Shown here piece after piece: positions 3,663 to 16,721 of a stretch of 27,616 nt of DNA. Numbering within the stretch: the first letter of the stretch is position 1; the number at the start of each line of letters is the position of its first letter. This DNA comes from a virus. A program made the position numbers and the translations under genes. The notes under the pieces are model-generated. The model did no database searches. It was not told the DNA's origin and saw nothing but the letters and a program-made list of their open reading frames with translations. The DNA is taken from IMG/VR virus record IMGVR_UViG_3300030116_003044, positions 1 through 27,616 of that record, one strand, 5' to 3'.

Positions 3663-3906
3663 TTTTCTCCTCCTTAGCAATTATTGCTCCGTTTTCTACT
3701 AATTTTACCAAATCAGTTTTAACTTCTAATATTGCCCTTTGTTTATGATATAAACTTTCTCTAGTATCTTTGTCTGTAATCTCTGTAGATATCCATTGTT
3801 GGTATCCATTGTTGAGAATACTGTTGAAAGCCTGCACCATTACAGGATTTTCAAGCAATTCTTTTGCATCTCTTGCTTGTTTGACTTGTTCTTCTTTAGT
3901 TGCCAT
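3655..3906 (-). CDS. Small conserved head-cluster protein (83 aa)
   Basis: The 83-residue, mostly helical charged protein contains AKELLENPVMVQAFNSILNN and a QQWISTEITDKDTRESLY segment. It overlaps the scaffold start by 8 bases and is preceded by AGGAGAACAAAATG, so it belongs to the same translational chain. Short helical proteins with a similar ENPV/AFNSI region precede scaffold genes in related phages as I recall, but I know no assigned function. A role in prohead assembly is inferred only from position. Confidence 0.75.
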   Translation of the reverse strand: MATKEEQVKQARDAKELLENPVMVQAFNSILNNGYQQWISTEITDKDTRESLYHKQRAILEVKTDLVKLVENGAIIAKEEKNG

Positions 3907-4087
3907 TTTGTTCTCCTATCTGTTTGATTCTATCCACCAGACTGGTGGGTATAGTTCTTCTCCCAGCGAGATATCCTTTTATATGATTGACAGGTATGCC
4001 AGTCTTGAGGAATAGCTCATTGATTGAAACTCGGTGTTTCAACATTAAGTGTTGTAATTCTGTATGTGTAATTTTATCCTTTTGCAA
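3896..4087 (-). CDS. Small helix-turn-helix protein (63 aa, TTG start)
   Basis: The frame opens with TTG at 4087; no upstream ATG is available without leaving the frame. The 63 residues contain a Cro/C1-like helix-turn-helix: HRVSINELFLKTGIPVNHIK (about 18-37) followed by GYLAGRRTIPTSLVDRI. It overlaps both neighbours, by 14 bases upstream and 11 downstream. A DNA-binding protein inside a head operon is unusual. It could regulate late genes or be a DNA-packaging accessory. The HTH fold is a fairly confident pattern call; the role is unknown. Confidence 0.65.
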   Translation of the reverse strand: MQKDKITHTELQHLMLKHRVSINELFLKTGIPVNHIKGYLAGRRTIPTSLVDRIKQIGEQNGN

Positions 4088-8813: not shown

Positions 8814-9002
8814 AATTCAGTAGAGGGTATTATCCATTTCTAAGTATGCACATTTTTTTGAAAAAAGTACAATATTTTGTGTTTTTTCGAAATTTTTTTA
8901 CTAGATGTTGTGGTTTGGACTATTTTCCCCACCGCTGCGTGGATCGTACTACTCTCTTCTTCTCTCGTTTTTAAAGGGGGGCGTACCCCTATAGTAGAAT
9001 GA
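8814..9002. promoter_or_regulatory. Intergenic region upstream of terL, candidate late promoter
   Basis: No gene is seen here. On the minus strand a GATAAT (8829-8834), five of six to the -10 consensus, would start RNA only about 8 bases before the terL ATG, but no convincing -35 is present. Long A/T runs (8861-8907) lie upstream and could act as UP-type elements or a phage-specific promoter. A short GC hairpin (AGGGG..CCCCT) lies around 8979-8994. The promoter call is tentative. Confidence 0.25.
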
Positions 9003-9313: not shown

Positions 9314-9643
9314 TTAACCAATCCCTATTTCAGACGAATTGTCATCAAGGGCTTGAATAACATGCTCTAATAATATTTCGAGTTCTAATGATGTATTACC
9401 CATCAGCTCAACATCGCACAACTCAACAATACGCGTCCAACCTAATTTCGGCGCATTTATGATTATTAGAAACGTGTAATTTGTATAGTCTGGTAAATAC
9501 TCTCTTGTGTTTTCGCTCCAATAGAGTTTTCCACTTTCAACCTCAGCTTTACAGATATAACAAGTCATATCACGCCATTTGAACTCTACACGTTCTTTAT
9601 AGTTTTCTACTTTTCTATTATGGTCTCTAGTTATATAAGACAT
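9314..9643 (-). CDS. Hypothetical protein (109 aa)
   Basis: The 109-residue protein has two cysteines close together (MTCYICKAEVESG), a hydrophobic beta-like stretch (YTFLIIINAPKLGWTRIVEL) and an acidic helical C-terminus (LELEILLEHVIQALDD). It has no signal peptide. It is preceded by CGGAGA, a leader hairpin and a TTGACA promoter, so it starts a short leftward transcript that also carries the 73-aa gene. Family unknown. Confidence 0.75.
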   Translation of the reverse strand: MSYITRDHNRKVENYKERVEFKWRDMTCYICKAEVESGKLYWSENTREYLPDYTNYTFLIIINAPKLGWTRIVELCDVELMGNTSLELEILLEHVIQALDDNSSEIGIG

Positions 9644-9691: not shown

Positions 9692-9719
9692 ATCTTAACA
9701 TCACGGTAAGTAATGTCAA
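9692..9719 (-). promoter_or_regulatory. Sigma-70-type promoter for the 109-aa gene
   Basis: On the minus strand TTGACA (9714-9719) is followed after 16 bases by TAAGAT (9692-9697). The -35 is a perfect consensus and the -10 matches four of six. The predicted start is about 40 bases before the gene's ATG at 9643. The -35 abuts the G-rich repeat block. Confidence 0.55.
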
Positions 9720-9725
9720 CTATAA

Positions 9726-9818
9726 GGGTGGGTGGGAGGGACGCGCGCATTAGCTCAACGGATCTCTTGGGGGGGATACGAAAAAAAAAGAATAGTTTAA
9801 GGGTGGGTGGGTGGGTGG
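9726..9818 (+). repeat. G-quadruplex motifs with poly-G/A-tract element
   Basis: The plus strand carries two canonical four-run G4 motifs, GGGTGGGTGGGAGGG (9726-9740) and GGGTGGGTGGGTGGGTGG (9801-9818). Between them is a 7-G run (9769-9775) followed five bases later by nine A's (9781-9789). The same building blocks recur at 10612-10840. In such an AT-rich genome these cannot be chance composition. They sit just upstream of the -35 of the leftward promoter, and the second lies beyond the terminator of the next gene. Confidence 0.8.
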
Positions 9819-9821
9819 CGC

Positions 9822-9852
9822 AAAAAAAACCCCCTAGAGATGTTTAGGGGGG
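9822..9852 (-). terminator. Intrinsic terminator after the 216-aa gene
   Basis: On the minus strand CCCCCTA-loop-TAGGGGG (stems 9830-9836 and 9845-9851, 8-base loop) is followed by eight T's (9822-9829). This is a textbook rho-independent terminator, 30 bases beyond the stop of the leftward gene at 9883. On the plus strand the opposite A-run makes it partly symmetric. Confidence 0.85.
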
Positions 9853-9882
9853 AAAACAAAAAAAAGTTTTATTTTGTACGAC

Positions 9883-10533
9883 TTATTGGCTGTCGTGTTC
9901 TAGAAGTGTTGGCAAGTTAACATGCTCTGGAAGTGTTGGCACTCTTATTTCAGCTTTTAGATATATTTTATATATCTCATCTTTTGCGTCTGCCAAACTA
10001 TAACCCTCTTCTAGTCTTGAATATGCCATGTTTTTCAACTGGTCTAGACCGTCTAGATATTGTTTTAGTGGGTTTCCGTTTCTGATGTCGTCTTGTTCAG
10101 CCCAAGAACTACACAGAGCAAAAGCCCAATTATCAAACCTGCCAAGTTCAACGTGTTCATCTGCTCTAACATCTGAGAGATTCAATGTGTTTGGTTCGGT
10201 GTTTGCTGACGCTTCAACAAAACCTGCACAGGTACTCTCTATCTTTTGAGCCGTGTTTACCATAGTCTCCCAATGATTTTTGAGTGTGCTCTTGTATGTG
10301 TCCTTGAAGTTTTGATATTCTTTTATCTGTCTCTCAAGGGCAACAATCAATTTATCAACACCTATGCTCTCTTTAAACTTAGGGTATGATTTTTTCACTT
10401 TCTCATTTAGTTGCTTGTTGTATATATTTTGGACTTCTGACGTTTTATTATAGAAGTTAGTTCTAATCTCTTCTCGCCAATAGTCTTTTTCCTGAACCCT
10501 AATGGGTTGCATTTTAGTTTCTTTTTTACTCAT
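9883..10533 (-). CDS. Hypothetical early protein (216 aa)
   Basis: The 216-residue protein is mainly charged and helical. It has a Lys/Tyr-rich N-terminal half (KEYQNFKDTYKSTLKNHWET), two Cys (STCAG, ALCSSW) and a helical C-terminal third (YSRLEEGYSLADAKDEIYKI). The end carries a short near-duplication, VPTLPEH followed by LPTLLEH. It stands alone between its own TTGACA promoter and an intrinsic terminator, and is flanked on both sides by G4-rich repeats. That single-gene, self-contained layout resembles a phage accessory 'moron' or a strongly expressed early takeover gene (inference). I do not recognise the family. Confidence 0.75.
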   Translation of the reverse strand: MSKKETKMQPIRVQEKDYWREEIRTNFYNKTSEVQNIYNKQLNEKVKKSYPKFKESIGVDKLIVALERQIKEYQNFKDTYKSTLKNHWETMVNTAQKIESTCAGFVEASANTEPNTLNLSDVRADEHVELGRFDNWAFALCSSWAEQDDIRNGNPLKQYLDGLDQLKNMAYSRLEEGYSLADAKDEIYKIYLKAEIRVPTLPEHVNLPTLLEHDSQ

Positions 10534-10582
10534 GATTTTTTACCTCATGTTGTTGGTTAAATATGGCTCATGCCATGTATTA

Positions 10583-10611
10583 ATATTATTAATTTTAATC
10601 AATATTGTCAA
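10583..10611 (-). promoter_or_regulatory. Sigma-70-type promoter for the 216-aa gene
   Basis: On the minus strand TTGACA (10606-10611) is followed by a 17-base AT-rich spacer and TAATAT (10583-10588). The -35 is perfect with optimal spacing. It abuts the first G4 motif (10612-10627). The transcript would start about 40 bases before the gene's ATG. Confidence 0.6.
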
Positions 10612-10840
10612 GGGTAGGGTGGGTGGGAACATTTGGTCTCCCAGAAGTCAAGGATTTTCGGGGGGAACATGAAAAAAAATAAAAGGATCTCGGGGTTGGG
10701 TGGGTTGGGAGCACATAGCCCCCAGATGTCAATATTTTTCGGGGGGAATCGTAAAAAAAATAAAGGGTGGGTTGGGTTGGGAGCCACCAATACCTTAGAT
10801 TGTCAAGTATTTTGGGGGATATAATAAAAAAATAAAACTA
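10607..10840 (+). repeat. Three-copy imperfect tandem repeat with G4 motifs
   Basis: Together with the promoter and the terminator at 10903, this accounts for the gene-free stretch 10534-11001. Units begin GTCAA at 10647, 10728 and 10802 (spacing 81 and 74), with a shorter one at 10607. A full unit is GTCAA-N2-ATTTT, a 5-6 G run, about five bases, an A-tract with TAAA, then four G-triplets. The G4 motifs lie at 10612-10627, 10692-10709 and 10765-10781, all on the plus strand. GTGCA-CGAA-TGCAC (10855-10868) is a nearby small hairpin. Candidate roles are a replication origin, a packaging signal or promoter-linked recombination sites. No open frame was supported here. Confidence 0.75.
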
Positions 10841-10902: not shown

Positions 10903-10959
10903 TAAAAAAAGCCCTCTTACTGTTTCTATATCCTATATAGGCTAGATAATAAAAGGGCT
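10903..10959 (-). terminator. Intrinsic terminator after the 136-aa gene
   Basis: On the minus strand AGCCCT (complement of 10954-10959) pairs with AGGGCT (10910-10915), immediately followed by seven T's (10904-10910). An inner CTATA..TATAG stem lies in the loop. It closes the leftward operon ending with the gene at 11002. Confidence 0.75.
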
Positions 10960-11001
10960 CTTCTGTTGGTGTGCGATTTTGTTTTTTATTACACCGTATA
11001 A

Positions 11002-11426: not shown

Positions 11427-12014
11427 TTATAAACATTGTTTTTCAGTTCTGATTTCACTCGCTCTTTCGATTAATTCTAAGAAATCGGTTCTTGTTATGT
11501 GCTCGCAGGTGTTAACCCACTCCGTGTTTTCAATAAAGTTCTTTAAATCTACTGCATGAAAACCCCAACGGATAACCTCTTGGACGGCTTGATTAAAATT
11601 TCCATTAATCAAACTATCGCAAATTTGGTCAAACTGCTTTTGGGTTCTAAATTCCTTATGCTTCTTGTTGCATTGTAAAGATAATTCATTATAGACACCA
11701 TTAAAAGTTCCAGTTGCTCTTCCTCCGTCTTGCTCTACTCCGTCCAAGTAATATGTATAGTCGATAATCATATTACCCTCTTCGAAGAATGTTGGTGGTA
11801 AGTCCTGATAGTCGCTATCAAAGTCTGTATGTTCGTGCATAATCAAATCAACTTGTATCAAGTAATCATTATGCCACCTATGAACCTCAACACCGTCTTC
11901 GAATAAAACCTCCTTGTATGCAGGATAATTTATCAACTCAATAGTTGGGTGGTCGTGGTCTCTATGCGTTGCACCCTTAAAAGGCTTACGTCTAATTTCA
12001 TGCGTCTCAGTCAT
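11427..12014 (-). CDS. Hypothetical acidic protein (195 aa)
   Basis: The 195-residue protein is His/Asp-rich at its N-terminus (GATHRDHDHPTIELINYPAY; HEHTDFDSDYQDLPP). It then has a FNGVYNELSLQCNKKHKEFR segment and ends in a helical, charged region with two Cys. The His/Asp clusters could bind metal but do not match a nuclease or hydrolase motif I know. The start overlaps the upstream stop by 8 bases, with AGGAGG nine bases upstream. Fifteen bases separate it from the next gene. Function unknown. Confidence 0.75.
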   Translation of the reverse strand: MTETHEIRRKPFKGATHRDHDHPTIELINYPAYKEVLFEDGVEVHRWHNDYLIQVDLIMHEHTDFDSDYQDLPPTFFEEGNMIIDYTYYLDGVEQDGGRATGTFNGVYNELSLQCNKKHKEFRTQKQFDQICDSLINGNFNQAVQEVIRWGFHAVDLKNFIENTEWVNTCEHITRTDFLELIERASEIRTEKQCL

Positions 12015-12192
12015 AATATTTATCCTCCTCGATAGATTTTAAAATGTCTCTAACAGTATCAATACTGTAGCCTGTATTGTGGGCTATCGTGATAACTGTT
12101 AAAGGCTCTTTAAGATTTGGTTTTTGTGCTTCGCTCATAGTTTGCAATGCTTCTATGATATCGAAGTATATTGTATTAAATGTTTTGCTCAT
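12007..12192 (-). CDS. Small putative helix-turn-helix protein (61 aa)
   Basis: The start is set at the ATG at 12192 (MSKTFNTIYFD), preceded by AAAGGAG with a good spacer; the longer frame to 12228 lacks a site. Residues about 28-55 (PLTVITIAHNTGYSIDTVRD plus ILKSIEED) look like a winged-helix or MarR/GntR-like helix-turn-helix, with ITIAHNTGYSIDTVRDIL as the putative HTH. It could be a small transcription regulator of this operon. The HTH is a pattern-based call of moderate confidence. Confidence 0.6.
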   Translation of the reverse strand: MSKTFNTIYFDIIEALQTMSEAQKPNLKEPLTVITIAHNTGYSIDTVRDILKSIEEDKYYD

Positions 12193-12215
12193 TTTTTGCT
12201 CCTTTGTTTTCTTTA

Positions 12216-12291
12216 ATTGTATCATCATTGATGAAAATTAAAAAATCCTGTGATCACTTTCGGTTCCCTTACCCCCTCGAAAAAGAGGGGG
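12216..12291 (-). promoter_or_regulatory. Candidate promoter and GC hairpin between operons
   Basis: On the minus strand TACAAT (12216-12221) is a five-of-six -10, but the -35 (TTTTTA, 17 bases upstream) is poor. Further upstream CCCCCTC (12272-12278) and GAGGGGG (12285-12291) form a 7-bp hairpin with a GAAAAA loop, embedded in a nine-G run (12287-12295). The hairpin lies after the 184-aa gene and may separate it from the next transcript; it has no T-run after it. Confidence 0.35.
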
Positions 12292-12308
12292 GGGGTATTG
12301 AAAAAAGA

Positions 12309-14325: not shown

Positions 14326-14373
14326 TTAATGATAATCTAAAATCAGATATTTCTCAATAAAATCAATACTTTA

Positions 14374-14443
14374 GGGGGGGTGTGTAAAAATAAAATAAGG
14401 GGGGGGGATAGAAAAAAGATAAATAGGGGGGGCGAAGAAAAAA
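14374..14443 (+). repeat. Three tandem poly-G/A-tract units
   Basis: Runs of 7, 9 and 7 G's begin at 14374, 14399 and 14426 (spacing 25-27). Each is followed after four or five bases by a run of A's (e.g. GGGATAGAAAAAAG). The same G-run then A-tract design occurs at 9769, 10660, 10741, 10814 and 12287. The block sits between a terminator and a promoter, in non-coding DNA. Homopolymer runs of this length are also prone to sequencing error. Confidence 0.7.
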
Positions 14444-14477
14444 GGTTAATCTAGCTAACCAACAAACTAGATTAACC
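14437..14477 (-). terminator. Intrinsic terminator of the recombination operon
   Basis: On the minus strand a perfect 11-bp stem (GGTTAATCTAG, complement of 14467-14477, with CTAGATTAACC, complement of 14444-14454; 12-base loop) is followed at once by six T's. It lies just beyond the stop of the gene at 14485 and ends the leftward operon from 16534. Confidence 0.9.
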
Positions 14478-16534: not shown

Positions 16535-16721
16535 ATTTACGCTCCTATTTTTACTTAACCCTAACATAAAAATAATCAAAAATCTACTTAAAATAGACTT
16601 CAATTTAAGATATAAATAATATATATTAATACACATACACCATATAGAACTATATGTGAGTGTATATTTAATAAAGTAGATATATATATAAATATATATA
16701 TATACAAAACAAGGAGCCAAC
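16535..16721. promoter_or_regulatory. Divergent early control region with long dyad
   Basis: This gene-free 187-base region separates the leftward and rightward early operons. At its centre is the perfect dyad CATATAG-AA-CTATATG (16641-16656), which extends outward as an imperfect inverted repeat (TATTAATACACATACAC on the left, mirrored by the complement of 16656-16672 on the right), about 16625-16672. An (AT)-rich alternating tract (16679-16704) follows, then AAGGAG and the rightward ATG. The dyad is a good operator candidate for a dimeric repressor. No convincing -35/-10 was defined because of the AT-richness. Confidence 0.6.

Follow-up and report, generated by a model that had tools for sequence, protein, structure and literature searches.

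The five G-quadruplex (G4) motifs noticed near 10 kb of the window (the whole stretch of 27,616 nucleotides analyzed here, a virus record from IMG/VR) are each a piece of a larger DNA element that occurs in repeated copies and whose sequence, orientation, spacing, conservation and position can be read directly from the genomes compared; the original observation was sound and understated. We suggest, with a confidence that falls just short of even, that the motifs represent one module of tandem cassettes placed upstream of promoters and having both a regulatory and an insulating role. Among the explanations considered, promoter regulation combined with insulation appears to be the best account, ahead of pure termination, recombination, neutral repeats, and a replication origin.

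Structure and Orientation of the Repeat Unit

All five four-run motifs reported by the first-pass annotation were recovered, each of them on the plus strand (Table 1), and G4 prediction on both strands of the whole 27.6-kb record revealed zero further four-run motifs of the G3+ N1-7 type. In 1000 dinucleotide-preserving shuffles, the plus strand carried 0.003 motifs on average and never more than one, and no shuffle produced the short-loop form. The motifs may fold into G4s in vivo.

Each motif is embedded in one repeat unit (three units in the right array and two in the left one), which on the minus (transcribed) strand reads T5-10 / 3-7 nt / C5-10 / ~32 nt / CCCACCCACCCnCCC and recurs with a period of 72-91 nt. 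The three right-hand motifs do form part of a tandem repeat, as previously proposed, the right array being 72.6% self-repeat. The idea that the left pair is assembled from the same blocks holds for the G-run/5 nt/A-tract and for the G3 block, but not for GTCAA, which occurs in the three right units and is absent from the two left ones. In nearly all the block-bearing units, core and block are 27-35 nt apart (median 32, that is, about three helical turns), and the similarity between right and left spacers (28% vs. 25% for shuffled ones) is hardly above chance.

The window contains 10 matches to the G-run/A-tract core, including a weak one at 1602 (nine without it), vs. 0.034 expected. The core thus extends beyond the range originally described, with one copy at 12.3 kb and three at 14.4 kb, in the same orientation throughout; moreover, most genes of the window are read leftward and, leaving out the weak match at 1602, 43 of the 43 cores found in six genomes lie on the transcribed strand of leftward genes. 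As the cores at 12.3 and 14.4 kb have no G4 block beside them, the G4 varies within the element; judging from these core-only sites and from the G-runs lost in some relatives (see below), the constant part is the T-run/C-run core. Hence, the motifs are real, but taking them as the focus was too narrow: the T-run/C-run core is the best conserved portion, and the G4s have been lost in part of one lineage.

A conserved RNA structure of the arrays was also considered and rejected: the left array is not unusually stable (z -1.3), and the z of -2.7 for the right region covers the strong hairpin of the upstream terminator. An Rfam search gave no match.

Table 1. Position and strand of the arrays, of the associated signals, and of the neighboring genes in the window.
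Feature	Position	Strand	Remarks
Right array	10612-10832	-	three tandem units; C-runs 10814, 10741, 10660
G4 blocks of the right array	10765-10781, 10692-10709, 10612-10627	+	motif scan
Left array	9726-9865	-	two units; C-runs 9847, 9769; unit 1 includes a terminator-like hairpin
G4 blocks of the left array	9801-9818 (or to 9815), 9726-9740	+	motif scan
Core-only site, three T-run/C-run cores without CCCACCC block	14374-14443	-	after terminator-like hairpin 14479-14442
Core-only site, single T-run/C-run core without block	12287-12306	-	-10-like TGATACAAT 65 nt downstream
Sigma70-like promoter TTGACA-17-TAATAT	10583-10611	-	-35 directly next to the last C block and 48 nt past the last C-run
Sigma70-like promoter TTGACA-16-TAAGAT with TG	9692-9719	-	49 nt after the last C-run
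Terminator-like hairpin CCCCCTA..TAGGGGG (9851-9830) + T8	9822-9851	-	belongs to gene 9883-10533; left unit 1 forms it
Terminator-like long hairpin + T7, upstream of the right array	10903-10960	-	RNA fold
Bracketed gene, 216 aa, all-helical	9883-10533	-	other members of the family occur in array-less marine phages
Gene downstream of the left array	9314-9643	-	replaced or swapped between relatives

Distribution of the Arrays in Related Phages

The TerL and portal proteins of the window are akin to those of Pelagibacter phage Baldr (TerL 60%) and of Vibrio phages (TerL 56-59%), and the portal shows 38% to that of Pseudomonas TL-like phages. Among the IMG/VR relatives, gathered either via TerL or via the array pattern, arrays at matching positions are harbored by L001, L012, L084, L087, and L127 (which ends after the right array), while L002, only a fragment, begins inside an array. 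Conservation across related phages, an issue raised by the first-pass annotation, is partial: the array is present in six IMG/VR contigs, whereas nearly all the other relatives with TerL at 84-88% identity and enough upstream DNA lack it, L084 (86%) being one that has it. Because several separate metagenome contigs carry the element, faulty assembly of a single sample does not account for its homopolymer runs. In the bacterial genomes of a collection of 84,980 species, the array pattern turned up as single matches in 85 stretches, none of which holds such an array. Accordingly, the element belongs to a single, small clade of marine phages.

Within this clade, all the detected G4 blocks of the window, L001, and L084 possess four runs; of the four blocks in L012 and L087, three are down to three runs with a length of three or more. 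Between the window and L001, identity amounts to 93-97% in the promoter-proximal right unit and falls to 43-85% in the downstream gene, which counts in favor of the promoter-upstream reading set out below. The number of units also varies between genomes (3 vs. 2), and such shifts, together with the confinement to a single clade, are what might be left by non-functional or selfish repeats spreading through the intergenic space of one clade. This explanation seems quite unlikely, given the strict orientation of the units, the spacing kept despite diverged spacers, and the matching positions in several genomes.

Two further features emerged from the comparison of the TerL relatives. Chromosomal parS-like 16-mers (TGTTTCACGTGAAACA, with at most two mismatches) occur in 11 of the 80 relatives and not in the window, vs. 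about 0.2 expected by estimate (L033:759, which is perfect, L005:1451, L008:444, L028:2383, L054:2980, L072:711, L073:5269, L074:1999, L075:7633, L076:416, and L079:8276); they could recruit host ParB. In addition, the noncoding stretch 8814-9000 of the window, located before TerL, resembles its counterpart in the relatives read, with CCACACAGCGGTGGGGAAA and AACACAAnATnTTGTA...TGTGCATACTTAGAAnTGGATAA, and it might be a promoter or leader of TerL or a site related to packaging.

Terminators, Promoters, and Transcription

The single gene bracketed by the motifs, as already pointed out, has a promoter-like site and a terminator-like hairpin of its own, and both flanking arrays share the same order, i.e., terminator-like hairpin, array, and sigma70-like promoter. 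With a rough, self-built sigma70 matrix applied at each site to the 25-110 nt that follow the last core, we obtained best -10 scores of 7.6-13.4 over all 17 sites vs. a background mean of 5.3. The best -10 lies 63-71 nt past the last core in 15 of these 17 sites, which include orthologues and hence are not independent; the remaining two, i.e., the 14.4-kb site of the window and its counterpart in L001, depart from this, in that a stronger match is found elsewhere and a weaker promoter-like one, read by eye, at 48-49 nt. The distance from the C-run to the -35 is 46-49 nt at both flanking arrays of the window, L001, and L084 and at the left array of L012 and L087, and the right array of L012, L087, and L127 exhibits an offset of 41-42 nt to a poor -35. 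All these promoters are consensus matches, of which a scan of the whole region gave 24 vs. 22.3 expected.

It is mainly because the -10 and -35 stand at a fixed distance from the core across sites that promoter regulation is preferred here. This evidence is good but not decisive: common descent is a possible source of the constancy, in that a duplicated array-promoter cassette may carry its spacing along. At the two arrays that flank gene 9883-10533, a terminator-like hairpin is followed by two or three bipartite elements, each with a T-run/5 nt/C-run and, about three helical turns away, (CCCA)nCCC, and then, with constant spacing, by a sigma70-like promoter. According to the model that we favor, the core, which lies at about -80 to -105, would influence the adjacent promoter either through a DNA-binding protein of the phage or the host or through the structure of the DNA, and readthrough from the upstream gene would be stopped by the G-rich template or the C-rich transcript, the outcome being the expression of each small gene as a separate unit. 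The action on transcription and the binding of a protein, like every functional role discussed here, are inferred from sequence. Two HTH-like proteins (3896-4087 and 12007-12228, weak matches) seem poor candidates for the cognate regulator, as they do not follow the distribution of the arrays: one is found also in array-less relatives, and some genomes with arrays lack the other.

The block to transcription originally envisaged fits the position of the arrays, with a hairpin before, a promoter after, a C-rich transcript, and a G-rich template. In a rival explanation, the arrays would be insulators or terminators in which C-rich, G-poor (rut-like) readthrough RNA loads Rho and/or template-strand G4s stop the RNA polymerase. 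In the transcript sense, C makes up 30-37% of the arrays and G 12-15%; the arrays come after terminator-like hairpins, and on the leftward strand the four 78-nt windows with the highest C-minus-G coincide with array sites (the top one being 14370-14447). The definition of a rut site is that of a C>G bubble (PMC9160355), and the arrays do provide a C-rich, G-poor untranslated RNA of ~78 nt. However, C>G trivially follows from G-runs on one strand, similar windows exist elsewhere, the other strand included, and both the fixed promoter spacing and the bipartite pattern are left unexplained, so that termination by itself looks rather doubtful to us.

The Bracketed Gene, Replication, and Packaging

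The model of the bracketed protein is all-helical and of middling confidence (pLDDT 74, pTM 0.39). Single-sequence searches with this protein gave no new relatives, and the family search gave no accepted match and no initiator domain. A profile search retrieved ~30 distant phage relatives, all without arrays, and therefore the bracketed gene does not explain the repeats. The identity of 67% with L001 and of 26-29% with the others speaks of divergence, with no clear replacement. The protein belongs to an all-helical MKPIRKDE family spread across marine phages, annotated as trichohyalin in Pelagibacter phage Baldr.

Same-orientation repeats on either side of one gene might recall an origin of replication in which iteron arrays flank the initiator gene, as around P1 repA, and an origin was indeed among the functions initially suggested for the motifs. 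We consider it very improbable: outside the arrays, the GC skew does not turn near 10 kb (it follows the coding strand and turns at 16.5-19 kb), a single weak DnaA-like box (10352) is present in the region, no AT-rich unwinding region lies at the arrays, the lowest-GC stretch being at 16.6 kb, the all-helical product of the bracketed gene is devoid of an initiator domain and has relatives without arrays, and the cores recur at other sites. Nothing was found in favor of a packaging signal, either, TerS being 9 kb away and the cores occupying four intergenic sites. The stretch 16600-16720, which has the lowest GC of all and holds an AT tandem repeat (16659-16708), lies between divergent operons at the GC-skew turn and is a better origin candidate than the 10-kb region.

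Possible Gene Exchange near the Left Array

The comparison of L012 with L087 revealed arrays that are 92-100% identical, an abrupt drop to 55-75% across the gene past the left array, and then a return to 88-100%; in L001, the gene at this place is unrelated to that of the window. The L012/L087 pattern fits an exchange of cassettes near the arrays, although ordinary phage mosaicism would look alike, gene swaps of this sort being common in phages generally. The arrays might thus be a recombination hotspot like gonococcal pilE, with the gene-flanking G4s stimulating the exchange of the adjacent cassette. The pilE G4 is d(GGGTGGGTTGGGTGGG) (PMC10094033); L084 holds this parallel-type 16-mer exactly, beside the variable gene, the window holds close variants of it, and the window phage encodes a RecE-like exonuclease. 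On the other hand, pilE antigenic variation needs a small RNA starting inside the G4 (PMC3547852), and in the array-bearing clade no promoter starts inside the G-tracts, the scores (6-8 of 12) being those of the background (mode 7); rightward promoters into the array G-tracts were accordingly dismissed as background. Furthermore, the breakpoints coincide with the borders of genes and are separated from the array by tens of nt, and no second copy of gene 9883-10533 or 9314-9643 that might serve as a silent one was found in the 27.6-kb record (possibly incomplete). A pilE-like role is, in our opinion, unlikely.

In distant relatives, near-perfect sigma70 promoters starting inside GGTGGGTGGGTGGG, i.e., with the layout of gonococcal pilE, were observed. 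Promoters with 11-12 of 12 consensus positions are located at L005:1421 and 2187, L008:1220, L034:1071, L051:2247, and L073:9900, and scores of at least 11 are essentially absent from 3000 random positions. Their -10 ends one base before GG(T/TT)GGG(T/C)GGG, L229 and L230 being alike, and they are placed just upstream of TerL or of small genes that precede it. Transcription should start inside the G4 tract at these promoters.

Returning to promoter regulation with insulation, one may speculate, with low confidence, that the tandem homopolymer/G4 elements of this phage clade insulate single-gene cassettes and switch promoters, and that distant kin start transcription inside a G4 tract in the same region. 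If this were true, G4s at promoters or recombination sites would be a recurrent device in these phages.

Comparison with Known Systems

To our knowledge, bacteria have few functional G4 elements, and no phage case was found in the open literature searched. The clade offers natural array variants (four-run, three-run, and no block) at a fixed promoter distance which, together with the relatives having G-tract starts, allow a direct test of whether G4s matter for transcription and cassette exchange in phages.

The P1 repA iterons incA and incC are direct repeats flanking one gene, and the arrays are similar in having direct repeats on either side of one gene but differ in the absence of an initiator protein or origin signature and in the cores at further loci. 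We know of no rut site with such a tandem bipartite pattern. The arrays share with rut sites (PMC9160355) the C-rich, G-poor untranslated segments downstream of genes, and they are unlike them in their regular tandem bipartite build tied to a downstream promoter. With Neisseria gonorrhoeae pilE (PMC3547852, PMC10094033) they have in common a GGGT-repeat G4 near a variable gene or cassette; they depart from it in the tandem bipartite structure with a T-run/C-run core, no G4-initiating promoter and no silent donors being seen. Lastly, the window arrays are like tandem activator sites in presenting repeats at a fixed distance upstream of the -35. The combination of a homopolymer T-run/C-run with a G4 block matches no activator site known to us; the general layout, i.e., repeated elements at a fixed distance to the -35 box, is that of tandem activator sites upstream of sigma70 promoters.
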